Below are positions 215-61,108 of a stretch of 64,000 nucleotides of DNA, piece by piece (the stretch's first letter is position 1; each line of letters starts with the position of its first letter). Source of the stretch: an uncultured Leptolinea sp. (GTDB lineage Bacteria > Chloroflexota > Anaerolineae > Anaerolineales > Anaerolineaceae); NCBI GenBank assembly GCA_903828565.1, contig CAIKMQ010000029.1, positions 1 through 64,000 on the forward strand, in the 5' to 3' direction. A program made the position numbers and the translations under genes. A model generated the notes under the pieces. That model ran no database searches. It was given only the letters and a program-made list of their open reading frames with translations, and was not told where the DNA came from.

Positions 215-964
215 ATGAGCGACAAAACCTATTCCTATCTGATGACTCTAATCGGGGTCGTGTGCGGTTATGTCATCGTCCGCCGCTTATTCTTTACAGA
301 TACGTTTACTCTGCGGAATGCCCTGGTGCAGGGTGTGCTCGTGGGGTACGGGATGGCACTTTTCACGATTGAAATGATAGCCAAAAAGAAAGCCGTACGG
401 ATTAATGGATGGACTACTGTTTATGGGTGTGGATTACCTGGAAATAATATTTTTATCCACGCAGCGCTTACCCGTATTTTCCCCGGCCCAGTGAACGTAC
501 CTCAGGAGGCGATCTACTGGCGGACGAATGTGGATGGGGCTGGAGACAGCCTTTCCGGGGAGAAAACCTATATCCTTCACTTTCCTCCGGGTGAATTACC
601 GCCATGTGATGCCTTCTGGTCACTGACAATGGCAGATACAAAAGAATGTTTTGTGGCTAATCCGGTCAACCGTTACAAAGTTGGCAATTATTCCGGGCTG
701 CAGAAAAACCTTGATGGATCCGTTGATATCTATATTCAAAATTCCCCTCCTCCAGGTCATGAGATTAACTGGCTGCCATCCTCAGAGGGCAATTTCAAAC
801 TCTGGTTGCGGGCATATCTGCCCGGAAAGGCCATTCTTGAAGGCAGTTATTTTGTCCCTTCCGTGTTAAGGGTGAAAGATAAAAACGAAAACACTTATGA
901 AAAACGGGCTTGCCTTCATTTTCTGTTTTATCGTGGTTGTTGTATGGCTCCTGGTGATCGTTAA
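215..964 (+). CDS. DUF1214-domain membrane-anchored protein
   Basis: Encodes about 249 residues: two hydrophobic segments near the N-terminus, then a DUF1214 domain with the characteristic stretch YILHFPPGELPPCDAFWSLT and a C-terminal LRAYLPG region. In most proteins DUF1214 follows a DUF1254 domain in one chain; here the two are separate genes and DUF1214 comes first. The function of the family is unknown. I chose the ATG at 215 because a TATAAT box (203-208) lies exactly six bases upstream, as at other apparently leaderless genes in the window. A TTG at 119 in the same frame would add 32 residues but has no ribosome-binding site. The next gene starts inside its 3' end. Confidence 0.7.
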   Translation: MSDKTYSYLMTLIGVVCGYVIVRRLFFTDTFTLRNALVQGVLVGYGMALFTIEMIAKKKAVRINGWTTVYGCGLPGNNIFIHAALTRIFPGPVNVPQEAIYWRTNVDGAGDSLSGEKTYILHFPPGELPPCDAFWSLTMADTKECFVANPVNRYKVGNYSGLQKNLDGSVDIYIQNSPPPGHEINWLPSSEGNFKLWLRAYLPGKAILEGSYFVPSVLRVKDKNENTYEKRACLHFLFYRGCCMAPGDR

Positions 965-1484
965 TTGGCCGCGCCTTTTGTTGAATGTCTATAAAAGGGC
1001 GATCTTGAAGAATGGATTTGGCGAAGGACCTATCCCGGTCAATACTCTATACACAGAACCACAGGAGTTATTTATGGACCCACTAAACCCTCCATCCTCT
1101 GGTTCAAAAATGATGACCACTGGCGTAAACCATGATACGCTCAGTACCTGCGGAGTCCTCGACCTGAGAAAAGGTGCACAAATACTGCATGTACCTGCCA
1201 TAACGGACCGATACTACAGCGTCCAATTCACTGATTTGAACAATGTTTCTTTTGCTTATGTTGGTACACGCACCACAGGGTCACAAGCGGGGGATTATCT
1301 CATCACGGGGCCGGGTTGGAAAGGGGAGGTGCCGGTAGGTATGGCCCAAATCCGGGCATCGAAAAACTCAGTGCTAATCATTGGACGCACGCTCGTGAAA
1401 AACGACAGTGATTTGCCGGCAGCCTATGCCCTGGCAAAGCAAATAGAATTAATACCGCTACAGGATTGGTTTGCCGGAAAATAA
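897..1484 (+). CDS. DUF1254-domain protein with N-terminal membrane anchor
   Basis: A 195-residue protein with one N-terminal transmembrane segment (about residues 5-24) and a DUF1254 domain. Family features include GVNHDTLSTCGVLDL and the segment from VPAITDRYYSVQFTDL to YLITGPGWKG. DUF1254 is usually fused upstream of DUF1214; here it overlaps the end of the DUF1214 gene by 68 nt in another frame, so the two are probably translated together and may form one two-chain protein. The biochemical role of the family is not established. The shortened C-terminus, which lacks any DUF1214 part, fits the split-gene interpretation. Confidence 0.75.
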   Translation: MKNGLAFIFCFIVVVVWLLVIVNWPRLLLNVYKRAILKNGFGEGPIPVNTLYTEPQELFMDPLNPPSSGSKMMTTGVNHDTLSTCGVLDLRKGAQILHVPAITDRYYSVQFTDLNNVSFAYVGTRTTGSQAGDYLITGPGWKGEVPVGMAQIRASKNSVLIIGRTLVKNDSDLPAAYALAKQIELIPLQDWFAGK

Positions 1485-1556
1485 AACATCTTTTCCCCAA
1501 CTGTATTATCCACATAGGCGAATTCTTTGTTATCTGGGATAAGCATTTATATAATT

Positions 1557-1595
1557 AATAGCAGCCGGGAGTTATAAATATTCCCGGCGGCTATT
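1557..1595 (+). terminator. Intergenic hairpin after the DUF1254 gene
   Basis: AATAGC-A-GCCGGGA pairs with TCCCGGC-G-GCTATT (13 bp with one internal mismatch) around an 11-base loop. There is no strong T-tract after it, so it may be a weak terminator or a 3' stabilising structure. It lies between the DUF1254 gene and the convergent helicase gene. Confidence 0.45.
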
Positions 1596-1686
1596 AGCGA
1601 GTTGTTGAGCTATCCACTTATCTAACATAGAGTTCTATTTGTACTATTCTTTTACAGGGTCAGGCTAAGGAGACCAATGAAAACTA

Positions 1687-2907
1687 TTACCCCCTAGAGG
1701 GGGCATAGCGGGAGTTTCGATTCGAGTTGTTCTGTTGGTTCTGCGGACGTGGTTTCATCTGCGCAGCCGGCCGAACAATGGGGGGCCTTTCCTGCGGGAT
1801 ACCTTCCACGCTGCGACGTTCGATCTTCTTTCCCATCAACTTTTCGATCATAGCAACCATGGGTAGATCTTCACGGGTTACCAGGCTGAGAGCATTCCCC
1901 AGACGTTCCATGCGGCCGGTCCTGCCGGTACGATGGGTGTACGCTTCGACGGTGTCCGGGATATCAAAATTGATCACATGAGATACTTGCGAAACGTCGA
2001 TGCCGCGGGCGGCAATATCAGTAGCAACCATCACCCTGGCATGTCCGCTGCGGAAGGCATTCATCGCTACCTGGCGTTGAGCCTGAGAGAGATTGCCCTG
2101 CAGAGAAGTAGCTTTGAACCCGGCCTGAGCCAGCTGAACAGATAGTTTCTTGGCACGGTGTTTTGTGCGGGTGAATACCAGTACCTGGCCGCTGCCGGTA
2201 TCTTTGAGGAGTTCCATCAACAACTCCGGTTTTCGGGTTTGATCGACCGTGTACAGGGCATGAGTGATCGTATCAAGAGGCTGCTCAATGCTGATCTCCA
2301 CTGTAATGGGGTCCTTCAAAACAGAACCGGCCAGTGAGCGGATCTCAGTGGGCATGGTTGCCGAAAAGAGCAGAGTCTGTCTTTGTTTCGGCAATGCGCC
2401 GATGATCGCGCGGATGGATGGGAGGAAGCCCATATCAAACATATGATCGGCTTCATCCAGTACCAGAATTTCGATATCGTTCAGGCGGATGACACCCTGA
2501 TTCTTCAGGTCGAGCAGTCGTCCGGGGCAGGCAACGATGATCTCGGCACCACTACGGATACCGCGGATCTGGGGTTGAGCGCTTACTCCACCATACACGG
2601 TAATGCTGCGTAAACCGGTGAGTTTACCAAAATGGGTGATGGCAGTGTGTGTTTGTTCCGCCAGTTCACGGGTAGGTGCGAGGATGAGCGCGCGTTGTTT
2701 CCCGCGCGGGCCTTTTATCAGATGCTGCAGCATGGGCAGGACGAATGCGGCTGTTTTTCCGGTACCGGTCTGAGCAAGGCCCAGGACATCCCGGCCCTCA
2801 AGAATGGCAGGGATCGCGCTTGCCTGAATGGGTGATGGGGTGCTGTAGCCAGCAGCTGATATTCCCGCGTTGATCTGCGGATGGAAATTAAAATTATTAA
2901 AACTCAT
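1687..2907 (-). CDS. DEAD-box ATP-dependent RNA helicase (RhlE-like)
   Basis: A 406-residue DEAD-box helicase that unwinds short RNA duplexes with ATP. Motifs in order: Q motif PSPIQ, Walker A AQTGTGKT (about 45-52), PTRELAEQ, DEAD in LVLDEADHMFDMGF, SAT, the helicase C-terminal domain with VFTRTKHRAKK, ATDIAARGIDVSQ and HRTGRTGR. The tail is basic and rich in Arg, Asn and Gln, typical of RhlE/CshA helicases in ribosome assembly or cold adaptation. The start at 2907 is preferred over an upstream in-frame ATG because TAAGGA lies just before it and the protein then begins at the usual helicase N-terminus. A cold-shock-type RRM gene is divergent to it, which suggests a shared role in RNA remodelling. 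Confidence 0.95.
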   Translation of the reverse strand: MSFNNFNFHPQINAGISAAGYSTPSPIQASAIPAILEGRDVLGLAQTGTGKTAAFVLPMLQHLIKGPRGKQRALILAPTRELAEQTHTAITHFGKLTGLRSITVYGGVSAQPQIRGIRSGAEIIVACPGRLLDLKNQGVIRLNDIEILVLDEADHMFDMGFLPSIRAIIGALPKQRQTLLFSATMPTEIRSLAGSVLKDPITVEISIEQPLDTITHALYTVDQTRKPELLMELLKDTGSGQVLVFTRTKHRAKKLSVQLAQAGFKATSLQGNLSQAQRQVAMNAFRSGHARVMVATDIAARGIDVSQVSHVINFDIPDTVEAYTHRTGRTGRMERLGNALSLVTREDLPMVAMIEKLMGKKIERRSVEGIPQERPPIVRPAAQMKPRPQNQQNNSNRNSRYAPSRG

Positions 2908-49121: not shown

Positions 49122-49997
49122 TCACTTACGTAAAATAAGGTGAAGGACGTTCGTTAGATCGACATCTTTCAAATTGGCACCTTCCAGATAGGCATCTTCG
49201 AGATCAGCCCCCGAAAGGTTAGCGCCAAGCAGGTTCACATCTTCCATATCCGCGTCTTTAAGGATGGCGGATTGGAGATTGGCACCGATCAAATTAGCAT
49301 CATTCAGCTTAGCTGATGTCAGGTTAGCCTCAGCAAGGTTAGCTCCGACCAGGTTGACTTCCGTGAGAGTAGCACTGAGAAGGTTGGCTCTTTTCAAGTT
49401 GCAGCCGGTCAATACTGCATCAGTCAGTTTAACTCCCATCATGTTTGCTTCTTCCAGATTCGCGCCTGTCATATTCGTGTCAGTCAGGTTTGCGCAGGTA
49501 AGATTGGCATACCTGAGGTTGGCACCAGTCAAATTGACATCTAGCAGGGTGGCACCCATCAGATTTACGGTTTCCAGATTTGCACCAAATAGATTGGCGT
49601 CGGTCAGATCGGTTCCCATCAGGGTACACCCATTGAGGTTCGCAACATCCAAGTTCGCATCTACCAGCTTTGCACCCGTCAGTTTAGCGTGGGAAAGATT
49701 CGCAGCTCGCAGGTTGGCATCCGTGAGATCAGCACCCGAAAGGCGGGCGTGTTCCAGGTTCGCTTCGTCCAAATTTGCACTATCAAGAATCGCATCTGTG
49801 AGATTGGCATTCTTCAGATTTGCCTTCTTCAGGTTGGCATCAGAAAAGATGGCATCCCGCAGATTGGCATTTTCCAGTTGGATACCATGCAAGTCGTGAC
49901 TGGCAAGATTAAGCCTTTCACCACCTTCTTGCTTCTGAAGGTAGAGGGCATGTTTTTCAAGCAGGGGAGTGAGATCTTCTAGCGTCATGCGTTTCAT
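49122..49997 (-). CDS. Pentapeptide-repeat protein
   Basis: A 291-residue protein of which residues about 35-285 are an unbroken run of about fifty pentapeptide repeats of the A(N/D)LxX type (for example ANLKKANLKNANL), expected to form a long right-handed quadrilateral beta-helix. A 30-residue N-terminal helix precedes it. Qnr/MfpA proteins with this fold mimic DNA and protect gyrase from quinolones, but most pentapeptide-repeat proteins have unknown roles. An MFS exporter follows on the same strand. The repetition produces long meaningless open frames on the other strand. Confidence 0.93.
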   Translation of the reverse strand: MKRMTLEDLTPLLEKHALYLQKQEGGERLNLASHDLHGIQLENANLRDAIFSDANLKKANLKNANLTDAILDSANLDEANLEHARLSGADLTDANLRAANLSHAKLTGAKLVDANLDVANLNGCTLMGTDLTDANLFGANLETVNLMGATLLDVNLTGANLRYANLTCANLTDTNMTGANLEEANMMGVKLTDAVLTGCNLKRANLLSATLTEVNLVGANLAEANLTSAKLNDANLIGANLQSAILKDADMEDVNLLGANLSGADLEDAYLEGANLKDVDLTNVLHLILRK

Positions 49998-50033: not shown

Positions 50034-50426
50034 TCATTCAATGAAGATCTCTACATGTTCCTGATCTTCTTCATCGAACACGTCTACCAATAAGCCCGTT
50101 TCTCCCTTGCGCAGGGCTTCATTGATGGCATTGATGTCGATACCTTCCATCTCAGGAGAAAAGCGCGCACCCATTTTCAATCCGGCTCCAACCAAGCTGA
50201 GCGGCAGACGAATATTGGTACGCAATTTACCGCTGACCGAATCGGTGATCTTAACCCGAAACCAACGACCTGGCTCACCGCTGCGAAAAGGTGGATTGAT
50301 ATCTGTGGGTTGCTCCTTTTTGGGTTGCGCACCCAGTGCATCCAGCAAGGTTATTGCTTCTTCAGCTGTGATCTTGCCTTCCTGCACCATCTTCATGATC
50401 TTAAGTTTCTCGTTATCAGTTGGCAT
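50034..50426 (-). CDS. SHOCT-like domain protein (YvlB/LiaX N-terminal type)
   Basis: A 130-residue protein. The N-terminus KLKIMKMVQEGKITAEEAITLLDAL is a SHOCT-like helical hairpin found in YvlB and LiaX envelope-stress proteins. The C-terminal part, with WFRVKITDSVSGKLRTNIRL and LLVDVFDEEDQEHVEIFIE, resembles the linker and strand that in longer homologues continue into a toast-rack domain, which is absent here. The ATG at 50426 follows AAGGAGG. It is the second gene after DUF2089, 22 bases apart, with a similar SHOCT-like motif in both. Confidence 0.83.
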   Translation of the reverse strand: MPTDNEKLKIMKMVQEGKITAEEAITLLDALGAQPKKEQPTDINPPFRSGEPGRWFRVKITDSVSGKLRTNIRLPLSLVGAGLKMGARFSPEMEGIDINAINEALRKGETGLLVDVFDEEDQEHVEIFIE

Positions 50427-50448
50427 GTGATGTACCTCCTTATACTGT

Positions 50449-50841
50449 TTAGCTTTCTCCGGCAAGTAATTTTCGGGCATCTTCGTAAGTGATCCTGCCT
50501 TCGCTCATATCATCCAGGATCCGTTCGCGTTCTTCAGTGCTTAATCGAACCGTAGGCGGTTCCTCCTTGCCGGGTTCAAACCCAAGCGCCCTCAGCAATT
50601 CCACCAGACGATTGCGCAGGGTGGGATAAGAGATCTTCAACTCATCTTCCATGCGGTTGAAACGCCCTTCACATTTTATGAAGGTTAATGCAAAGGCAGC
50701 CTGTTCGGGAGAGAGCCTATTGAAAGGCCCGCTAATGGGGGGGAAACTTCCTTCGATCGATGTTGAGCAGTTATCACATGCCAGGCGGGTGACGGTAAGG
50801 TCATGATCACAGACCGGGCAACGGGTCAATTGAGTCTTCAT
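50449..50841 (-). CDS. DUF2089 zinc-ribbon/helix-turn-helix protein
   Basis: A 130-residue DUF2089 protein. An N-terminal zinc ribbon has CPVC and CDNC pairs (about residues 8-11 and 23-26), followed by a helix-turn-helix-like segment FNRMEDELKISYPTLRNRLVELLRALG. The C-terminal short motif ILDDMSEGRITYEDARKLLAG parallels the SHOCT-like motif of the next protein. It is probably a small DNA-binding regulator of its own operon: a perfect palindrome overlaps the predicted transcription start. GGAGGT precedes the ATG. Confidence 0.86.
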   Translation of the reverse strand: MKTQLTRCPVCDHDLTVTRLACDNCSTSIEGSFPPISGPFNRLSPEQAAFALTFIKCEGRFNRMEDELKISYPTLRNRLVELLRALGFEPGKEEPPTVRLSTEERERILDDMSEGRITYEDARKLLAGES

Positions 50842-51093: not shown

Positions 51094-53406
51094 TCACGAG
51101 CTTTCAGTGGGGCAGAATGCCGGCAGCTGGTGTTGACCGATACGGTGGAATGTTGGCAGTAACATTTCAATCGGCCTCTCGCGGCCAAAGAGCCAATCTG
51201 CCATGCTACGTTCACTGAATTGCAACGGTTGCAGCAGGGTAAAAGCTGCCCGCAGAAAAAGCACCTGGTAGCGTTCCAGGTTCAGGCATCGCGGGTCAAA
51301 CTCATCGGGCAGATCCCACGCACACACGCCAGGCTCCCCGAGAGTGAACAGAAAGCGCACTTTTTGCCCGGGACGCAGTGATTTTCCGCTGGCTTCCAGC
51401 TGGGTGAGCGCGGCCGCGGTGGGCGTATTGGGTGTTTTGTAGTCACTGAGCTTGCGGCTCAGTTTCATTGTCACCAGATATTCCTCTATCGGCAGGGCGC
51501 GTTGCCGGATGAGCGCTAATCGCCTGAGGAGGAATGTCCGCATCTGCGGCAGCAGGGTGGGCAGTTCTTCAGCGCTGGCGGCAGCGGACATCAGCTTGAG
51601 CAGTTCCATTTGCGTGCCGGCAATGCAAGCTGGGGTATCCCCGCGCCTGGCTTCGATGCCGCGTACCTTAATGGTGCCATCCTGGAAGACGCCAAAATAT
51701 CGGTTTGGCACAGGAATGCGGGTATCACGGCGCGATGGCAGAAATGCCACCCAACGGAAGACTCCGTCCAGAGAAATGGGCATACCTGTGCGGTGAGATA
51801 CTTCATCCAAGATAGGCTGGAAGTCCTGCACCGTTCTCATTCCGGGTTTCTTAACCCACAACCCATCCACGTACATGTGCAGCACCTCGAACCCCAGATC
51901 TTCAGCGGTTTCCTTGGCGGCCAGCAGCATCTCACGGCCGTAGGCTGTGACAGCCTGGTGTGCTTCTATGCGTCCGAAGCGCGCATTCTTGTACCCCAGG
52001 TAGCCGAAGCAGGTAACCAGCAGCCACTTGTGGGCGGAAACGCACATCTGATAACGCCGCTTACGTGGATCCCATGCCGGCAGTTCCAGCAGCTGCTCTT
52101 TGAAGGTAATCCGTTTACGCAGCAGCGGCTGCAGTGTCAGGGGTACCAGGCCGGGCGTGCTGCGGTCGATCGTCATGCCAAGTTCGGGCACTTCTTCAGC
52201 GCCGGGCGCGCGGGTGCCTACTGTTTCCGGGGAAATATTGAAGTGCACCATTACGCTGGGGTACAGGGAGATAAAATCGATCTCCCCTACGTGGCTGTGC
52301 AGGCCGACGGTGGGCTGATAGACCAGGCCGCCCTGGTCGCCGTAGAACAGATCCATGGCACTACGTGGATCTTCAGCCTTTTGTTTATGCCAGGGAACCA
52401 ACACATTCATGCGCAATGCCGTGGTCATTTGCATGGCGGAAATGCCGGAACCGGGCGAGACGCGGGCACACATCTGCAATGGCAGACCGGTGACGCGTCC
52501 CAATTCAAGCACGCCATCCAGCCCGTAATCCCCCCAGAGCATGGCGTTGCAACGGTCGATATGCAGCCGGCCGAACAGGTGTATCTGTTCACCCCGGTGA
52601 ATGACCTGTCCATAAGAGAAATACACCCGCTCCCCGCGGCGAGCCACACCGTGTCCTGGTTCACGGTTCAACGACAGGGGAACTTTCCACTTTTCTGAAA
52701 GCTGCAGCAGGTGGTCGATCAGCCAGGTATCTCCCCAGTTGGTCAACAGAATATCCGGATCATACGACTGCAGGATGGCAGCGATATTGATGATGAAAGG
52801 CCTTTCGGGTTGCAGGGGAATACGGCCCGTGTGTTTATCATGCCGAATGAGAAGTTCACGCGGCTGACTGTGGGCAGGCGGAACATCCGGTTCCAGCGAG
52901 AGGATGCGCAGCGGGGGCGGCGGCGGGTCGAGTTCCCAGGGAGTATCCAGTGCCTGAATGGATTGGATGACACCATTTCCATCAGCGGCAATGCTGCAGT
53001 AAGCCAGCGGGAAAATTCCCGTGCTGGCCTGGTAACGCAGGGAAAGCTGGATGTCAGCGTCATAGAAGGTGATGTCTGGAAAGGCGCGGCTGATGTACTG
53101 GAACAACAACGGCTGGCGGGAAGTTTCAGCTACTTCTATGGCCAACACGGGTATCTCGGCGTTGATGAACAGATCCCGCCGGCGTGTTTCGTATAGCCGT
53201 GGGGGCAGCGGCTGGCGCAAAAGTTCGCGGCGCAGTGTTTGTAGGCGCGATGGGTTGGCTGCGGCGTAAAAGGTTACCGGGAAGGGTTGGGTGAACCGAA
53301 GGCGTTTGCCATCTTCGGTAAGGAACCACAGAGCTACACCCTGGCGCGGCGTTTCGAAGATATCCAGCACCCAACCCATGCAGCGGATGCCAGCAGTTAC
53401 GCTCAT
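51094..53406 (-). CDS. Family-B DNA polymerase with altered exonuclease and motif C residues
   Basis: A 770-residue PolB-fold protein. Motif A is DFISLYPSVMV (D377), motif B KWLLVTCFGYLGYKNARFGR (from K460), and motif C reads MYVDGLWVKK (D514), so the usual second aspartate of DTD is replaced. The exonuclease region is divergent: LEPDV (172-175) replaces the DxE of exo I, while GD (225-226) and YGLD (294-297) remain at exo II and III. This suggests weak or absent proofreading. The ATG overlaps the stop of the upstream 97-residue gene as ATGA. Bacterial relatives with D-x-L-W at motif C form an uncharacterised clade. A translesion or repair polymerase role is inferred from the SOS-like promoter. 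Confidence 0.9.
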   Translation of the reverse strand: MSVTAGIRCMGWVLDIFETPRQGVALWFLTEDGKRLRFTQPFPVTFYAAANPSRLQTLRRELLRQPLPPRLYETRRRDLFINAEIPVLAIEVAETSRQPLLFQYISRAFPDITFYDADIQLSLRYQASTGIFPLAYCSIAADGNGVIQSIQALDTPWELDPPPPPLRILSLEPDVPPAHSQPRELLIRHDKHTGRIPLQPERPFIINIAAILQSYDPDILLTNWGDTWLIDHLLQLSEKWKVPLSLNREPGHGVARRGERVYFSYGQVIHRGEQIHLFGRLHIDRCNAMLWGDYGLDGVLELGRVTGLPLQMCARVSPGSGISAMQMTTALRMNVLVPWHKQKAEDPRSAMDLFYGDQGGLVYQPTVGLHSHVGEIDFISLYPSVMVHFNISPETVGTRAPGAEEVPELGMTIDRSTPGLVPLTLQPLLRKRITFKEQLLELPAWDPRKRRYQMCVSAHKWLLVTCFGYLGYKNARFGRIEAHQAVTAYGREMLLAAKETAEDLGFEVLHMYVDGLWVKKPGMRTVQDFQPILDEVSHRTGMPISLDGVFRWVAFLPSRRDTRIPVPNRYFGVFQDGTIKVRGIEARRGDTPACIAGTQMELLKLMSAAASAEELPTLLPQMRTFLLRRLALIRQRALPIEEYLVTMKLSRKLSDYKTPNTPTAAALTQLEASGKSLRPGQKVRFLFTLGEPGVCAWDLPDEFDPRCLNLERYQVLFLRAAFTLLQPLQFSERSMADWLFGRERPIEMLLPTFHRIGQHQLPAFCPTESS

Positions 53407-53696
53407 TTGAGAGTTTCTTCCGCTGTAGGTAGCGGGGATGTTGCAAACTGCATTTCTTCGACCACTTGCCGCAGACGCAGCAGTTCTTTGTGTTCTTCTA
53501 GAAGCATGGCAAGCAGGAAGGTCTCAAAAGGCAGCGCATGGGATGCATAGGCGGCAGCCGCCAGGTGCTGTTGCGCAGCGGCAAACAGGTCATCTAATGC
53601 AAGCTGGTCTTTGCGGCGTAATGCGCGCCTGAAGCGCGCAAAAGCTTCCTGCTCACCTAAAAACTCCTGGGTAATGGATGGAAGTGTGCGTCCCAT
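53403..53696 (-). CDS. Small helical protein of the PolB cassette
   Basis: A 97-residue, almost wholly helical protein with no recognised domain. It has a conserved-looking basic cluster FARFRRALRRKDQLALDDLF, then a hydrophobic helix LPFETFLLAMLLEEHKELLR and a short acidic tail. The ATG at 53696 follows AAGGAA, seven bases after the RecA-like gene stops; frames continuing upstream lie inside that gene. Its stop overlaps the polymerase start as ATGA. The coupling implies that it works with the polymerase, perhaps as an adaptor, but this is inference. Confidence 0.78.
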   Translation of the reverse strand: MGRTLPSITQEFLGEQEAFARFRRALRRKDQLALDDLFAAAQQHLAAAAYASHALPFETFLLAMLLEEHKELLRLRQVVEEMQFATSPLPTAEETLK

Positions 53697-53703
53697 GGGT
53701 TCC

Positions 53704-54288
53704 TTAGAACAGGCGGGGAATGGCCGGAGCTGTGAGGATCTCCGCCTGCCAGATATCATCCACAAAAGCCAGCATGTCATCCAGCAGCATCTGCTGATCC
53801 GGGCGGTCATGCTGAGCCGGCCGCAGGCTGATGAGCAGCGTGCCATATCCGGACAGTACTTTGAAATAGCGCTGGCAAAGGCGCAGTAAACGCTGACGTT
53901 CTGCCAGCTGGACATTCTCATCATAGAAAGTCGCCAGTAGATCCAGTACTAGTGTGGCGGGGGATGGGGTGGAACGTTGCCGTGCCAGCAAGGCAGCGGC
54001 TGCCAGCAGTGATTCCATCTGATAACAGGTAAAAGCACGTGCCAGGTTGATGCGCTGCAGCATGGCATCCATATTCTCTGTGTGACGGCGCACAGCGCGC
54101 GCTACCAGGTAAGCGTTAAAGTGATTTCCACCATCCAGTACATGCACCGGCCCGTTCAGAGAGCAGCGCGCGGCCGTTTCCAGCATCAAATTGCGGCCGG
54201 CGTGCGGCGCCAACACAGCCAGGGTCTTTCCGCTGGCGGGGTCGGGCAGGAAGGTGGTGGAGGGGGAGGCGTACGAGATGATGTTCAT
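53704..54288 (-). CDS. RecA-fold protein with degenerate P-loop, PolB cassette
   Basis: A 194-residue protein whose strand pattern fits a RecA/RadB-like core. TLAVLAPHAGRNLMLETAA (22-40) lies where Walker A would be but lacks GKT/S. VHVLDGGNHFNAYLVARAV (48-66), INLARAFTCYQMESLLAAA and LVLDLLATFYDE (113-124, Walker B-like) follow, with a further strand TLLISL. This recalls ImuA and SulA-like RecA relatives that have lost ATP binding. The ATG at 54288 lies six bases after TATAAT, so it is leaderless; the longer in-frame start at 54336 precedes the promoter. It heads the operon with the 97-residue protein and PolB. Confidence 0.8.
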   Translation of the reverse strand: MNIISYASPSTTFLPDPASGKTLAVLAPHAGRNLMLETAARCSLNGPVHVLDGGNHFNAYLVARAVRRHTENMDAMLQRINLARAFTCYQMESLLAAAALLARQRSTPSPATLVLDLLATFYDENVQLAERQRLLRLCQRYFKVLSGYGTLLISLRPAQHDRPDQQMLLDDMLAFVDDIWQAEILTAPAIPRLF

Positions 54289-54294
54289 ACTGTT

Positions 54295-54323
54295 ATTATA
54301 TAGAATATATGTTCTAATGTCAA
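54295..54323 (-). promoter_or_regulatory. Consensus leaderless promoter of the PolB cassette
   Basis: On the minus strand TTGACA (54323-54318), a 17-bp spacer, TATAAT (54300-54295), six bases, then ATG at 54288. This is the closest match to the bacterial consensus in the window. Confidence 0.88.
54301..54316. promoter_or_regulatory. SOS-box-like palindrome in the promoter spacer
   Basis: TAGAATATATGTTCTA fills the spacer between the -35 and -10 boxes of the PolB cassette. It is symmetric except for one base pair. Its right half GTTCT and the overall form resemble the Bacillus-type LexA site CGAAC-N4-GTTCG. A repressor bound here would block the promoter fully. LexA binding is inference. Confidence 0.65.
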
Positions 54324-54455: not shown

Positions 54456-54953
54456 ATGTTGGAAGTTGTCGTAGCCGGGGGCATGATTTTTTGCGCCGTG
54501 CTAGCCATTCGATCATCGCATTTATTGCAGTCGGCGATTTGGTTGGCAGGCAGCAGCGCGTTCACTGCCATATTACTTTATTTGATGGGGGCGCCGCAGA
54601 TCGCTGTGATCGAGTTGAGCGTAGGCGCGGGGTTGGTAACTGTATTGTTCGTATTTGCCATCAATATCACCGGAGAGGATGCCAGCACAGTGCTGCCGTC
54701 CATTCCCCGACCAGTGGCGTGGGCAGCGGTGGTGTTAGCCATCGCCGCGTTTGCGTGGATGGTCCTTCCGGGGCAGCAGCCTGCTTTGACAGAGGCTGGC
54801 CCGGCTGTATTTACCAGTGTCTTATGGAAGGATCGAGCGGTGGATATGGTACTGCAGGTAGCCCTGATCTTTGCGGGTGTCTTGGGCATTCTAACTCTGC
54901 TAGGCGGCCATGAAGATACCGGCGAAGTCGCGGGAGGTGCTCATGATCATTGA
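54456..54953 (+). CDS. Hydrogenase membrane subunit, MbhD/MnhB-like (DUF4040 type)
   Basis: A 165-residue protein with four or five transmembrane helices. The stretch IWLAGSSAFTAILLYLMGAP and IAVIELSVGAGLVTVLFVFA match the DUF4040 domain of MbhD and MrpA/MnhB and the equivalent helices of NuoJ. The C-terminal HEDTGEVAGGAHDH tail is hydrophilic. It is probably part of the proton/sodium-translocating membrane arm of the hydrogenase encoded downstream. It is the first gene of the operon, behind GGGAGGT. It overlaps the next gene by 11 nt. Confidence 0.82.
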   Translation: MLEVVVAGGMIFCAVLAIRSSHLLQSAIWLAGSSAFTAILLYLMGAPQIAVIELSVGAGLVTVLFVFAINITGEDASTVLPSIPRPVAWAAVVLAIAAFAWMVLPGQQPALTEAGPAVFTSVLWKDRAVDMVLQVALIFAGVLGILTLLGGHEDTGEVAGGAHDH

Positions 54954-55254
54954 ACCCCGTCTGGTGATCACCATGGCAGTGATCTGCCTGGTTGGAATTG
55001 GTATTTACGGCCTGCTGATCACCCGTAATCTTATTAAGGTCATTGTCGCACTCCAGATCCTTGTAAAGGGTGCCATTTTAGCACTGGTGCTGGCGGCTGA
55101 ATTGCAGGGGCAGATCCAGCTGGGACAATCCATGGCGCTGACATTGATCGTTGCTGATACCATCGTGGCAGTAGTCGGGTTGGCGCTGGGTTTGCAGGTT
55201 CGCCGGCGTGTCGGTTCGCTGGACCTTCGCGACCTTTCCAAATTAAAGGGATGA
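54943..55254 (+). CDS. Hydrogenase membrane subunit, NuoK/MrpC-like
   Basis: A 103-residue protein with three transmembrane helices. GIYGLLITRNLIKVIVALQILVKG (24 residues, quoted here only by its start GIYGLLITRNLI) carries the NuoK/MrpC-type helix with its buried charged residues. ALTLIVADTIVAVVGLALGL is the last helix. It belongs to the membrane arm that couples electron transfer to ion movement. The ATG at 54943 follows GGGAGG and lies inside the end of the previous gene. Confidence 0.85.
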   Translation: MIIEPRLVITMAVICLVGIGIYGLLITRNLIKVIVALQILVKGAILALVLAAELQGQIQLGQSMALTLIVADTIVAVVGLALGLQVRRRVGSLDLRDLSKLKG

Positions 55255-57005
55255 TCATGCCTGCTCTATTGACACTCTGTACAATTCTCGTTCCCTGGCT
55301 GGGTGCAGTAGCCATCTGGATGTTGGGAGATAAAAGACAAAAGACTGTCGGACCGGTAGCCGTGACTTTCTCCGTTCTTGCGGCACTGGCCGCCCTCTGC
55401 CTGTATCCATTCGCGACAGCCGGTGTGGTAGTGAGCATCCCGATGGGCGATGCATTTGGGAGCCTGTCTTTTCGACCGGACGGATTGGCTGCCCTTCTCA
55501 CTGTAATCGCCACTGTCATTGGTAGCCTGGCAGTGATTTTTTCACTGGATTACATGAAGGGTGAGCATCAACTTCCACGATACTACTCCTTCATTCTGCT
55601 TTTTATTGGTGCGATGGCTGGACTGGTTCTGAGCAGCAGCCTGCTATACCTCTTTTTCTTTTGGGAAATAACAGCACTTAGTTCTTATGCCTTGATCTCC
55701 TTCAATAATGATGATCCCAAAGCAGTTCGCGGTGGTATCAAAGCTCTGATCATGACCCAGGTAGGCGGTGCCGGATTGCTCGCCGGGGCGCTGGCTCTGT
55801 TTTCAGCGACTGGTAGTTTTGAAATCGATCAGGTTCTGGCGAATCCTGTGGCGATACCGGCCGGGCTACTGGCTTTTGCAGCCTTCGGGTTCCTGGTGGC
55901 AGCTGCTGCCAAATCTGCACAATTCCCATTTCAGACCTGGCTACCGGACGCGATGGAAGCGCCGACACCCATCAGCGCCTTGATTCACGCAGCTACCATG
56001 GTGAACGCGGGGGTATACCTGCTTGCCCGGTTTTACCCGGCGTTCGCAGAAGTACCCGGCTGGAAGACTGCCGTCATTGCGGTAGGCGTAATCACTGCTT
56101 TCTCTGCTGCATTGATGGCCATTGTGGCCGGGGATATCAAGCGGGTTCTGGCATATTCCACAGTATCCCAACTTGGATATATGGTTTATGCCATTGGACT
56201 CGGCGCGGTAGAAGCAGCGCAGTTCCACCTGTTGAGCCATGCCATCTTCAAAGCCTTGCTCTTCCTTTCAGCCGGTGCTGTGATCCACTCTGTAGGCACG
56301 CGGGATATTTTCCGCATGGGCGGGTTGGGGAAAAGGATGCCATTCACCCGGCTGGCTTTTGTGATCGGCTCACTGGCACTTGCCGGCATCCCCGTTCTCA
56401 ATGGTTTCTGGAGCAAAGAATTGATCCTGGAAGCCGGGATGGAAACCGGACCGGCATGGGGTTATATTCTGATGCTGGCTGGTGCCGGCCTCACTGCGCT
56501 GTACACTCTGCGTGTCACCTGGCTGGTATTTTACGGGAAACCTCGAGAAGATCTGCATGTTCATCCCGCGGGTAAAGCGATGAAGACCGCGTTGCTTCCC
56601 CTTGTGATTGGCAGTATATTCAGTTGGCTGCTGGTGGCATTCGTAACGCGGGTTTCAGCAAATACGATGCCATATCACCATATGGAGGCAATGGACATTA
56701 CCACACTGGTACAGGAAGTCATTATGAATCCGGGTACATTGATCGCCCTGGCGGTAATTCTTGCAGGGGCTGGCACCTGGCTTGTTTCACAGCGAGTTCG
56801 CTTTTTTGAAAAATCTCTGGGCTGGGCAGTGCACTCGATACAGGCCTCTTTTGGTATGGAATCGATCAATGATGCCATCACCAGGCTCGCCGGATTTGCA
56901 GGTGAAAAACTGCGGATTACTCAAACTGGCCTCATCAGCTGGAATTTGCTCTATGTGGTAATCGCTTTGATACTGGCCTGTATCTATCTGGCAGTGGGAG
57001 CATAA
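55251..57005 (+). CDS. Hydrogenase antiporter-like subunit (NuoL/MrpA type)
   Basis: A 584-residue membrane protein with about sixteen helices and a proton-antiporter (Proton_antipo_M) domain. LYLFFFWEITALSSYALISF, LPDAMEAPTPISALIHAATM and KRVLAYSTVSQLGYMVYAIG hold the conserved Lys, Glu and His of the NuoL/MrpA family. The C-terminal extension (about 480-584) resembles the lateral-helix region of NuoL. The start overlaps the previous stop as ATGA; ATG 55257 is equally possible. It should pump H+ or Na+ when H2 is made or used. Confidence 0.92.
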   Translation: MIMPALLTLCTILVPWLGAVAIWMLGDKRQKTVGPVAVTFSVLAALAALCLYPFATAGVVVSIPMGDAFGSLSFRPDGLAALLTVIATVIGSLAVIFSLDYMKGEHQLPRYYSFILLFIGAMAGLVLSSSLLYLFFFWEITALSSYALISFNNDDPKAVRGGIKALIMTQVGGAGLLAGALALFSATGSFEIDQVLANPVAIPAGLLAFAAFGFLVAAAAKSAQFPFQTWLPDAMEAPTPISALIHAATMVNAGVYLLARFYPAFAEVPGWKTAVIAVGVITAFSAALMAIVAGDIKRVLAYSTVSQLGYMVYAIGLGAVEAAQFHLLSHAIFKALLFLSAGAVIHSVGTRDIFRMGGLGKRMPFTRLAFVIGSLALAGIPVLNGFWSKELILEAGMETGPAWGYILMLAGAGLTALYTLRVTWLVFYGKPREDLHVHPAGKAMKTALLPLVIGSIFSWLLVAFVTRVSANTMPYHHMEAMDITTLVQEVIMNPGTLIALAVILAGAGTWLVSQRVRFFEKSLGWAVHSIQASFGMESINDAITRLAGFAGEKLRITQTGLISWNLLYVVIALILACIYLAVGA

Positions 57006-57006
57006 T

Positions 57007-58512
57007 ATGCCGTTGAAACATTTCAGTACGTTACTAATACTACCCCTGGCATTTTCACCAGTGATCTACCTTTTTGGCAGGGTGGCTGGTAGCCTAGAAA
57101 AGAAAAACACCGGGCCCAATATCAGCCGCTGGTTGTTGATGGGTGTGATCTCAGGGGGCCTTTACGCACTTGTTCGTCTTTATCCGGTTTCCATGGCAGG
57201 CGAGAAGGTTCGCGCCACATGGGGTACTGTATCCTTTCAGTTTGACGGCATCAGCCTGGTGTTGATCGGCTCTACGCTTATTCTGGGTTTGTTATCCACA
57301 TTGTACTCTGGAAGATACCTGGCAGGTGAGACCGGAGAAGAGAAATACTATGCCCTCTTTTCTATACTGATCGGGTCCATCATCTGCCTTGTCAGTGCGG
57401 CGGATCTCTTTACCCTCTGGTTGTGCTTCGAGATCATGGCTGTCAGTACATATACCCTGGTGGCTTTCCACCGACAGAATGCAGCGGCGCTGGAGGCCGG
57501 TGTCAAGTATCTGGTTCAAAGTGCTCTGGGGTCGGTTCTGGTAATTCTTGGGATTGCTCTCGTTTTTGGTGAACGTGGATCACTGGCCTTGGATACTCTG
57601 AAGGCGAGCGGAGCTCAAACATCCGGACTTCTGGCGGCAGGAGGGTTGATTCTGATCGGCTTCGGTATTAAAGCAGCCATTGTTCCACTGCATACCTGGC
57701 TGCCGGATGCTCACTCGCAAGCGCCATCCGGTATGAGCGCGATGCTCTCCGGTGTTGTGATCGCGGCGGGGTTGACAGCCATGCTGCGTGCGCTATCTGC
57801 GTTGGGTGTTCCAGCTTCTGTCTGGGGGTGTGCATTCCTGACTCTTGGCGCGATCAATATGCTGGTTGGGAACCTGCTTGCCTTGAGGCAGGTAGAAGTA
57901 AAACGGATGCTGGCATATTCGAGCATCAGTCATATCGGCTACTTGCTCACCGGGTTGGGGTTTGCGCTGTATCTGGGTGTTATCAATGGCGCGGAAGGCG
58001 CATTCTTCCATCTGATGACTCATGCGATCATGAAGGGGCTGGCCTTTCTCGCTGCCGGGGCCTTCCTGTTTGTGCTTCTTCCGCATGATGGTTCGCATGG
58101 GCCGTTGAAGATCAAGGACTTGCAGGGTGCAGCGGGTAAGTACCCACTGGCCGCGCTCACTTTCAGTATCGCATTACTGGCATTGGGTGGTCTTCCTCCG
58201 TTGGCGGGCTTTATGTCCAAGTGGGTTATTTTTACTGCAGGTTTCATCGCAAAAGATGGCTGGATGACAGCAGCAGCTATTTTTATGGCGCTCAACAGTG
58301 TCCTTTCCCTCGCATACTACGCGCCTGTGATTAACCGCCTCTATCAACGGGAGAGTTCTGATCTGGTGAAGGCAGGATCAAAGATCCCTGCTAGTTTGAA
58401 CATACCGCTGGTGATACTCGCGATTTCCACGCTATTGATCGGCCTTTATCCGGCCATTCTGCAGCCCATCTATCAGCTGGCGGGTAAAAACCTGCTGGCC
58501 CTTTTCTTCTAG
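57007..58512 (+). CDS. Hydrogenase antiporter-like subunit (NuoM/MrpD type)
   Basis: A 501-residue membrane protein with about fourteen helices. Family motifs are LFTLWLCFEIMAVSTYTLVA, LPDAHSQAPSGMSAMLSGVV and KRMLAYSSISHIGYLLTGLG. It is the second ion-pump module of the complex, giving two antiporter units where Ech has one. It starts one base after the previous gene's stop. It corresponds to MbhH by position. Confidence 0.92.
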   Translation: MPLKHFSTLLILPLAFSPVIYLFGRVAGSLEKKNTGPNISRWLLMGVISGGLYALVRLYPVSMAGEKVRATWGTVSFQFDGISLVLIGSTLILGLLSTLYSGRYLAGETGEEKYYALFSILIGSIICLVSAADLFTLWLCFEIMAVSTYTLVAFHRQNAAALEAGVKYLVQSALGSVLVILGIALVFGERGSLALDTLKASGAQTSGLLAAGGLILIGFGIKAAIVPLHTWLPDAHSQAPSGMSAMLSGVVIAAGLTAMLRALSALGVPASVWGCAFLTLGAINMLVGNLLALRQVEVKRMLAYSSISHIGYLLTGLGFALYLGVINGAEGAFFHLMTHAIMKGLAFLAAGAFLFVLLPHDGSHGPLKIKDLQGAAGKYPLAALTFSIALLALGGLPPLAGFMSKWVIFTAGFIAKDGWMTAAAIFMALNSVLSLAYYAPVINRLYQRESSDLVKAGSKIPASLNIPLVILAISTLLIGLYPAILQPIYQLAGKNLLALFF

Positions 58513-58521
58513 GATAGTTCG

Positions 58522-58833
58522 ATGGAATTCATTCTGACACCACCCATCGCTTTCTTTCTATATATTCCCCTGGTATTTCTGATCGTCCTGCTTGGGCAAA
58601 AACTGGCAGGGACATCAAAAACAAGTGAATTAAAGTCATCACTATATGGATCAGGAGAAGAAGCGCCTACGCATTTTGCATCACCGGGTTACAAGCCTTT
58701 CTTCCTGGTGGCACTCTTCTTCGCGATCTTACACCTTGGAATACTGGTTACCGGATCCGGCAACCTGCACCCGGTTGAAGCAATTTATCTGGGTGGTTTG
58801 ATCCTGGCACTGGTCGCCCTGATCCTTGGATGA
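58522..58833 (+). CDS. Hydrogenase membrane subunit, NuoA/MbhI-like
   Basis: A 103-residue protein with three transmembrane helices. The loop after the first helix contains YGSGEEAP, as in NuoA-type subunits that link membrane and peripheral arms. The C-terminal helix ends LGGLILALVALILG. It occupies the position of MbhI in Mbh operons. Nine bases separate it from the preceding gene. Confidence 0.75.
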   Translation: MEFILTPPIAFFLYIPLVFLIVLLGQKLAGTSKTSELKSSLYGSGEEAPTHFASPGYKPFFLVALFFAILHLGILVTGSGNLHPVEAIYLGGLILALVALILG

Positions 58834-58846
58834 GGAGGTAGTTTTC

Positions 58847-59377
58847 ATGGATTTACCAAAAGCATGGGAAGCCGCATTAGTTGATTTGAAAACCTGGGCA
58901 AGGATCAATTCTCCCTGGGCAATTCATTTCAACAGTGGTTCCTGCAATGGATGTGATATCGAAATTCTCGCAACCCTGACCCCGCGGTATGACCTCGAAA
59001 GGCTGGGGATCAAATTACAGGGAAGCCCGCGTCACGCAGATGTTTTGATCTGTACGGGGCCGGTTACTCGCCAGGCGCGGGAACGACTGATCCGGACTTA
59101 TGAGCAGATGCCAGACCCAAAATTCGTTGTTGCTGTTGGTTCTTGCGGCATCACCGGTGGAGCGTTTGAAGGGTGTTATAACGTGGCCAATGGTGTGGAT
59201 AAAGTGATCCCGGTGGATGTATATATCCCCGGATGTCCCCCACGACCCGAAGCGATCATATTTGGTGTCAGCCAGCTGCTTCAATCCCTTCAGCCACCTA
59301 AAAAGGCAAAAAACCGGAACGCGATCGTAACAAACCCGATTACCGGATCGACACCTAAGAAGGGGGTGGGAGAATGA
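58847..59377 (+). CDS. [NiFe]-hydrogenase small subunit (NuoB/MbhJ-like)
   Basis: A 176-residue peripheral subunit that carries the proximal [4Fe-4S] cluster. The ligands are C33 and C36 in GSCNGCDIE, C100 in VAVGSCG and C130 in YIPGCPPRPE. Short length and one cluster are as in group 4 hydrogenases and NuoB, unlike uptake hydrogenase small subunits. The ATG at 58847 follows GAGGAGG; earlier frames lie in the preceding gene. It passes electrons between the ferredoxin-like subunit and the [NiFe] site. Confidence 0.93.
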   Translation: MDLPKAWEAALVDLKTWARINSPWAIHFNSGSCNGCDIEILATLTPRYDLERLGIKLQGSPRHADVLICTGPVTRQARERLIRTYEQMPDPKFVVAVGSCGITGGAFEGCYNVANGVDKVIPVDVYIPGCPPRPEAIIFGVSQLLQSLQPPKKAKNRNAIVTNPITGSTPKKGVGE

Positions 59378-59934
59378 TAGTGACACAGACTGAAGAAAAC
59401 TTAGAAGAAGTACAAACTTTGCTGGCGCAATTGGCAATAGCATATACCCGTCCGGAGGAAAATCGCATCGATGTGATCCTCCCACCCGCTAAGTTGGTTG
59501 AAGCAGCGCGTATTATGGAAGATACCGGCTTCTGGTATTTATCTGCGATCACCGGTGTGGATCATTCCAGTTCCGCGGACACTACCAATGAAGAAAAAGC
59601 CTGGCAGCGCGTTGTTGAAGGCGAGGAACAGACGGGTTTTGGTTATTCAGGGGTTCTGGAAGCCTTGTATCACTTTTGTAAGGGATCGGTTGTGGCTACT
59701 TTACGTGTGAGAATGGGGCATGCCAATCCCAATCTGCCGAGCATCTGCGGTGTTGTTCCTTCCGCTTCATTATACGAACGTGAATTGATGGAAATGTTTG
59801 GGATTTCAATTGAGGATACACCGGTAAAAGATCACCTGTTATTACCAGATGATTGGCCGGTTGGTGTTTACCCCCTGCGGAAGGATTTTAAAGGTTTTGG
59901 CCAGCCTGAAGTAGAAGGAGGCGCTAATGCCTGA
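59374..59934 (+). CDS. Hydrogenase peripheral subunit (NuoC/MbhK-like)
   Basis: A 186-residue protein with the respiratory-chain 30-kDa domain: SLYERELMEMFGISIEDTPV and LPDDWPVGVYPLRKDF are family hallmarks. It supports the small and large subunits in the peripheral arm. The start overlaps the previous stop as ATGA, and the large-subunit gene begins 8 nt before its end. Confidence 0.93.
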   Translation: MIVTQTEENLEEVQTLLAQLAIAYTRPEENRIDVILPPAKLVEAARIMEDTGFWYLSAITGVDHSSSADTTNEEKAWQRVVEGEEQTGFGYSGVLEALYHFCKGSVVATLRVRMGHANPNLPSICGVVPSASLYERELMEMFGISIEDTPVKDHLLLPDDWPVGVYPLRKDFKGFGQPEVEGGANA

Positions 59935-61108
59935 AACCAAGCACGGAGATAAATTCATCGTTCCGATTGGGCCGCAGCACCCGGCACTAAAAGAACCCGG
60001 GCATTTTGAGTTCACAGTAGACGGGGAGACTGTTACAGGGGCATCTGTCAGGTTAGGCTTTGTCCATCGAGGGATTGAGAAAGCTGCTGAAGAGCGCACT
60101 TATATCCAGGATCTTTACCTGCTTGAGCGTATTTGCGGGATCTGTTCGCATGTGCATGCCATGGCTTTCGCTCTTGGGGTTGAAAAACTGGCAGGTGTCA
60201 CGGTCCCAGAACGGGCACAGGCGATCCGTGTGCTGGTTGCGGAGATGGAACGCATCCACTCACACCTTCTCTGGCTGGGTGTAGCCGCTCACGAAGCAGG
60301 TTTTGATACGCTATTCATGTATGCCTGGCGTGACCGGGAAAAAGTGATGGACCTGCTTGAGCAGTTATGCGGCAATCGGGTGAATTACTCGATTAACGTA
60401 CTTGGCGGGGTGAAGGAGGATGTCAATGATGTCATTCGCGACGGCATCCTCAGCGCCATGGATTACCTTGAGACACGCACCGTTCTATACCTGAAACTGG
60501 TTACGACCGAGCGCACACTCATCGGTCGGACTCGCGGAATCGGTATTATGGAAAAACAAACCGCCGCCCGGTTAGGCACCGTTGGTCCGACCGCGCGCGC
60601 CTCCGGTTTGGAGCGGGATATCCGCCTGGAAGCGCCGTATGCGGCATACTTGCAATATCCTGCCCGCATCGTTACAGAACAAACCGGCGACCTGGAAGCC
60701 CGGTTTATTGTCCGTGTCAAAGAACTTTACGAAAGTTTTCGCCTGATCAGGGGAATTCTCTCCACTTTACCCGGTGGCGAACTGACCACAAAAATGCCCC
60801 GCCGGATCCCTGAAGGGGAGACGATCTCCAGAGTAGAAGCACCTCGTGGTGAACTTTTCTATTACATAAAAAGCAATGGATCTGATAAACCTGACCGGGT
60901 GAAAGTGCGAACCCCCAGCATCAATAATTTTGCTTCTGTGATGGCAACTGCTGTGGGTCATAAACTGGCTGACATTCCCATGATCTTATCGGGGATTGAC
61001 CCCTGTTTTTCCTGCAATGACCGCATGGTTTCCATCCGCGGTAGTGAGGGTCAGCAGGCAGTGGATTGGGAAGAGCTGCGATTGTATGGAATAGAGTATT
61101 ACCGATGA
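59927..61108 (+). CDS. [NiFe]-hydrogenase large subunit, group 4
   Basis: A 393-residue catalytic subunit. Both nickel-binding motifs are intact: RICGICSHVH with C70 and C73, and DPCFSCNDRM with C360 and C363. NuoD of complex I lacks these cysteines, so this is a hydrogenase, not complex I. The chain continues 27 residues beyond R366-M367, the site at which HycE is cleaved during maturation, and a matching protease is encoded downstream. It evolves or oxidises H2 at the cytoplasmic face, with reduced ferredoxin as the likely partner. Confidence 0.96.
   Translation: MPETKHGDKFIVPIGPQHPALKEPGHFEFTVDGETVTGASVRLGFVHRGIEKAAEERTYIQDLYLLERICGICSHVHAMAFALGVEKLAGVTVPERAQAIRVLVAEMERIHSHLLWLGVAAHEAGFDTLFMYAWRDREKVMDLLEQLCGNRVNYSINVLGGVKEDVNDVIRDGILSAMDYLETRTVLYLKLVTTERTLIGRTRGIGIMEKQTAARLGTVGPTARASGLERDIRLEAPYAAYLQYPARIVTEQTGDLEARFIVRVKELYESFRLIRGILSTLPGGELTTKMPRRIPEGETISRVEAPRGELFYYIKSNGSDKPDRVKVRTPSINNFASVMATAVGHKLADIPMILSGIDPCFSCNDRMVSIRGSEGQQAVDWEELRLYGIEYYR

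Follow-up and report, generated by a model that had tools for sequence, protein, structure and literature searches.

The locus described here raises the question of whether three tightly coupled genes in an Anaerolineaceae bacterium (Chloroflexota) constitute a new kind of DNA-damage response machinery or belong to a system that is already known. The initial annotation of the window, by which we mean the whole 64-kb stretch of DNA that was analysed, had likened these genes to an ImuABC-type mutasome, with a RecA-fold protein, a small adaptor and a divergent B-family polymerase encoded on the minus strand. The open reading frames match the arrangement given there, with a 7-nt gap between the first and second genes and an ATGA overlap between the second and third:

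53704..54288, minus strand: iRadA, 194 aa, a RadA/Rad51-fold protein without a P-loop and with the C-terminus IPRLF
53403..53696, minus strand: PPB2 (arCOG07300-like), 97 aa, helical, with the N-terminus MGRT
51094..53406, minus strand: PolB2, a B-family polymerase of group G2/B2, 770 aa, with a degenerate exonuclease

The iRadA-PPB2-PolB2 locus is a bacterial member of a known system and not a new system, and we consider it very probable that it represents an SOS-inducible PolB2 mutasome operon.

Starting with the first gene, the description of its product as a RecA-fold protein lacking a normal P-loop is borne out on both counts. Structure prediction, which had been put forward as a check on this protein, yielded a confident AlphaFold model (pLDDT 92.7, pTM 0.87) with a RadA/Rad51 fold, matching solved structures of RadA, Rad51, DMC1 and Rad51 paralogues in a fold search (best E 1.3e-8); by sequence, the best PDB match is archaeal RadA (E=5e-4). 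None of the 28 iRadA sequences examined harbors a GxxxxGK[ST] P-loop, and iRadA is for this reason presumably unable to use ATP. With 194 residues, and lacking both an N-terminal domain and an active ATPase site, the protein corresponds to the iRadA expected in a PolB2 operon; it groups with archaeal RadA/Rad51, and we saw no similarity to ImuA. The IPRLF tail of the window protein may be read as a degenerate beta-clamp motif, and many relatives end in QLALF-, QLPLF- or QPRLF-like peptides as judged by sequence; among the published members, only some have iRadA or PolB2 ending in a beta-clamp motif.

The 97-residue product of the second gene, near the length of about 90 aa expected for PPB2, is predicted to be helical, as first noted, and its residues M1-G2-R3-T4, invariant in 29/29 aligned sequences, represent the N-terminal PPB2 motif (MGRT) named in PMC11791011. 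At position 9, the window protein carries Thr rather than Arg, and Thr is also found in S. islandicus. A profile search against a set of only six proteins established homology between PPB2 and its haloarchaeal counterparts (E=6e-18 and 2e-16), with the window-family profiles of iRadA and PolB2 likewise finding theirs (best E 6e-10 and 3e-130, respectively). Modelling of the PPB2 monomer gave a poor result (pLDDT 78, pTM 0.40), and a fold search with this model matched no solved structure. A variant was seen in locus L030 (genome G041), where iRadA and PPB2 form a single fused frame of 281 aa containing MGKT instead of MGRT; this internal MGKT could restart PPB2, and a second iRadA is located elsewhere in the same genome (C663).

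The third product matches Pfam DNA_pol_B (E=8.7e-26) and B-family polymerases in the PDB (E=1e-40), in agreement with its initial assignment as a B-family polymerase with a degenerate exonuclease region. Exonuclease motif I displays no conservation across the aligned PolB2 sequences, and the ExoIII-bearing stretch, as judged from an unaligned and shorter segment, fails to align with the PolB structure (query 248-294 vs. chain 255-346). The catalytic residues of the window PolB2 comprise D377 in motif A, K460 in motif B and D514 within the YVD of motif C, which aligns with the DTD of PDB 5mdn. All 28 aligned PolB2 sequences retain the Asp of motif A, the Lys of motif B and, in motif C, only the second Asp, the first being replaced in every one. 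The loop site described as D(K/R) in PMC11791011 retains an invariant Asp357, followed by Q, K, L, R or F among relatives (Q in the window). Polymerase identity to archaeal PolB2 is ~27-35%.

These features are familiar from earlier work. Makarova 2014 observed that archaeal genomes, and some bacterial ones, encode PolB2 alongside arCOG07300 and an inactivated RadA, in certain cases accompanied by lexA, and proposed roles in repair or replication control (PMC4104785); Kazlauskas 2020 described G2 as a bacterial group nested in archaeal B2, its members having a single motif C Asp, an unconserved ExoI and no ExoIII (PMC7544198); and Timinskas 2025 named iRadA and PPB2, found only the order iRadA-PPB2-PolB2 in bacteria and modelled the three proteins as a heteropentameric complex, which was called a mutasome (PMC11791011). 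The window operon resembles the bacterial PolB2 operons (PMC11791011, PMC7544198, PMC4104785) in its gene order, the MGRT arm, the single motif C Asp, a dead exonuclease, an inactive RadA-like partner, the occurrence of fusion variants and a link to LexA, and possibly in clamp-like C-termini. Unlike the published examples, its D(K/R) site reads DQ, and the lexA gene of its genome lies on another contig, with the LexA link consisting of a promoter box. The archaeal PolB2/Dpo2 operons of Sulfolobus and haloarchaea encode homologous proteins, those on haloarchaeal plasmids in the same gene order, but the literature connects them with orc1/cdc6-linked regulation and PCNA, in contrast to LexA and the beta clamp in bacteria. 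By published modelling, E. coli Pol V (UmuD'2C-RecA) works alike in combining a polymerase, an armed oligomeric small partner and a recombinase fold (PMC11791011); it differs in having a Y-family polymerase and an active RecA, and its polymerase and small partner are without homology to PolB2 and PPB2. Experimental work exists on the archaeal member, Dpo2 (PMC7390963, PMC8764526). For bacteria, the literature search yielded neither an experimental description of a PolB2 mutasome nor any data on expression, binding or activity of Chloroflexota members, in keeping with what the initial annotation had stated for this phylum, and the main texts of the key PolB2-operon papers do not mention Chloroflexi.

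A mutasome is the most likely function of the operon, and we infer a translesion role for the window proteins by analogy with archaeal Dpo2. We have also considered that the complex may be mainly associated with recombination or replication forks, with iRadA capping or regulating RecA filaments and PolB2 being a weak or structural polymerase. The loss of the first motif C Asp in 28/28 sequences would fit such a role, as would the resemblance of the iRadA model to RadA and to Rad51 paralogues such as those of BCDX2, and repair or replication-control roles have been proposed (PMC4104785); however, Dpo2, with the same motif C loss, is an active TLS extender (PMC8764526), and the invariant motif A and B residues together with D514 would be needless in a purely structural protein. 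We therefore regard this alternative as unlikely.

As to the comparison with ImuABC, one part of it stands, in that an error-prone-type PolB is conserved together with an adaptor and a member of the RecA superfamily, but the set is the known PolB2 operon rather than a new B-family ImuABC. SOS control is supported by sequence and the rest is drawn from the cited work, so that the analogy with a mutasome is reasonable as to function. ImuA-ImuB-DnaE2 likewise combines a RecA-superfamily partner, an adaptor and an error-prone polymerase under SOS control, but differs in its C-family polymerase, its Y-family adaptor and a partner of RecA type rather than RadA type. The window genome harbors one DnaE and one Y-family gene, DinB-like and with apparently intact catalytic residues; the Y-family profile matched this single place, and neither ImuB/UmuC nor a second DnaE was found in the genome. 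Since this is a draft genome, rated 99% complete, the absence of ImuB/UmuC is likely rather than certain. With one DinB, one DnaE and no ImuB/UmuC found, the PolB2 set is therefore probably the only multi-subunit mutasome of this genome. Membership in ImuABC was rejected. The related proposal, that a true ImuA-ImuB-DnaE2 relative had its polymerase replaced by a B-family enzyme, would account for the parallel in composition (a protein of the RecA superfamily, an adaptor and a polymerase behind an SOS promoter), but we deem it highly improbable, as it is already contradicted by an iRadA closest to archaeal RadA/Rad51, by a PPB2 that is a small helical homologue of archaeal PPB2 and not a Y-family polymerase, and by the failure to find ImuB or a second DnaE in the genome.

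Co-occurrence of the genes in relatives had been suggested as a check; the nearest named relatives of the window genome are Anaerolineaceae MAGs. Of 61 related genomes, 38 contain PolB2, and all but one of these also contain iRadA, so that both occur together in 37/61; neither was found in the other 23. The only PolB2-positive genome without iRadA (G006) holds a PolB2 fragment near a contig end. At 30 loci read individually, the window included, PPB2 immediately precedes PolB2, or lies upstream of it in fused form, on the same strand in 30/30, and iRadA precedes PPB2 in 29/30, including the iRadA-PPB2 fusion of L030. At the 30th locus (L019, genome G031), iRadA lies ~2 kb upstream with an insertion between it and PPB2; loss of iRadA was considered for this locus and rejected, since the insertion explains the separation. 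Here (L128, G031:C1:2366800-2369800), a 384-aa ORF (871-2025, minus strand), which we take to be an IS110-type transposase, sits between the two genes, and an exact box GAACACGCGTTC is found upstream of iRadA. In a survey of 301 Chloroflexota genomes, strong PolB2 matches (E < 1e-200) were obtained in 17, 16 of them from the same order and one from elsewhere in the class; weak matches (E 1e-16 to 4e-4), probably other B-family polymerases, were not counted.

The analysis adds one new element, evidence on regulation in the form of a LexA-type box in the operon promoters. The promoter of the window operon comprises three elements:

54318..54323, minus strand: -35 element TTGACA, read from the sequence; TTGAC before the box is also found in many relatives and at lexA/recA
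54303..54314, minus strand: LexA-type SOS box GAACATATATTC, with one mismatch to GAACNNNNGTTC, in the -35/-10 spacer
54295..54300, minus strand: -10 element TATAAT, read from the sequence; the start codon is 6 nt downstream

Read through, the promoter is TTGACA-TTA-GAACATATATTC-TATATAAT-AACAGT-ATG, with 17 nt between -35 and -10. As the ATG follows the -10 by 6 nt, the mRNA is probably leaderless; several relatives have the same spacing, which suggests an SOS gene transcribed without a leader. A single site with one mismatch is common, there being 28 sites with <=1 mismatch in the 64-kb window and many intragenic matches genome-wide, and we rejected any claim of significance from the window alone. 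Significance comes instead from where the box sits in the promoter and from the promoters of lexA, recA and the relatives' operons. The lexA box GAACGCATGTTC and the recA box GAACGCATGTGC of the window genome occupy the same promoter position as the operon box (lexA promoter, TTGACATGGAACGCATGTTCGTGTATAAAT; recA promoter, TTGACCAATGGAACGCATGTGCTATAAT), which agrees with the SOS-like promoter proposed initially, and the pattern GAAC-N4-GTTC lies between -35 and -10 in about half of the relatives' operons. Scoring the best site per ~200-260 bases against single-base (not dinucleotide-preserving) shuffles, with iRadA starts set approximately, we found exact GAACNNNNGTTC in 26/30 lexA promoters of the family and order (0.1 expected), <=1 mismatch in 16/30 recA promoters (1.9 expected; typically GAACNNNNGT[AG]C), and, among PolB2-operon promoters, an exact box in 9/29 (0.1 expected) and <=1 mismatch in 15/29 (2.4 expected), mostly in the -35/-10 spacer. 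These data support assignment of the operon promoter to the LexA regulon, and induction of the window operon by DNA damage is predicted from the same sequences. About half of the relatives' operon promoters lack a clear box within the stretch scanned, and SOS control is therefore not universal. Near-perfect boxes were also noticed at the starts of two other genes, GGAACATATGTCCT at L050 (G000:C3:72630) and GGAACATATGTTCT at L047 (G000:C32:89503), presumably ssb and mraZ, respectively, which are possible further members of the regulon by sequence.

That the operon is merely a decaying or non-functional remnant of horizontal transfer, as a patchy distribution (not found in 23/61 relatives) might suggest, is scarcely credible and already contradicted by the conserved functional residues, given open frames without internal stops, motifs invariant across 28-30 divergent copies, a gene order that is kept and a conserved promoter box.

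For the PolB2 mutasome, we postulate the following course of events. DNA damage would lead to RecA-stimulated cleavage of LexA, freeing the box in the promoter spacer and allowing synthesis of a probably leaderless mRNA for iRadA, PPB2 and PolB2. By homology, the three proteins would form one complex, in which PPB2, a trimer in literature models, may reach with its MGRT arm into the space separating PolB2 from iRadA, close to the primer-template, with iRadA docking on a loop of the polymerase as RadA subunits dock on each other. The C-terminal tail of iRadA (IPRLF here) may hold the beta clamp; for the window proteins, both complex formation and clamp binding are surmised by analogy. PolB2, which lacks proofreading and has an altered active site, would then extend mismatched or lesion-blocked primer ends. 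On a broader scale, we give even chances to the proposition that a B-family mutasome derived from archaea has come under bacterial control in the Anaerolineaceae (LexA box, clamp-type tail of iRadA), replaces ImuABC/Pol V as the only multi-subunit mutasome and is the main source of SOS mutagenesis. The operon is common, co-inherited and apparently under LexA in one bacterial family, which makes the predicted complex testable in bacteria, and the analysis derives from sequence a LexA box for a group in which we found no earlier description of one. It bears on how mutagenesis is induced in a phylum that is large and poorly cultured, and opens no new kind of system.

Downstream of the operon, a DUF2089 zinc-ribbon/HTH protein overlaps a SHOCT-like DUF2089-C protein (50034-50841), probably a small regulator pair, and a long pentapeptide-repeat protein occupies 49122-49997, with a 211-aa ORF on the opposite strand that is probably an artefact of the repeat. 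Divergent from the operon, a cluster resembling Complex I or a membrane-bound hydrogenase (54456-61108) contains MbhD/Oxidored_q3, two proton antiporter subunits and the 20-kDa and 49-kDa subunits.
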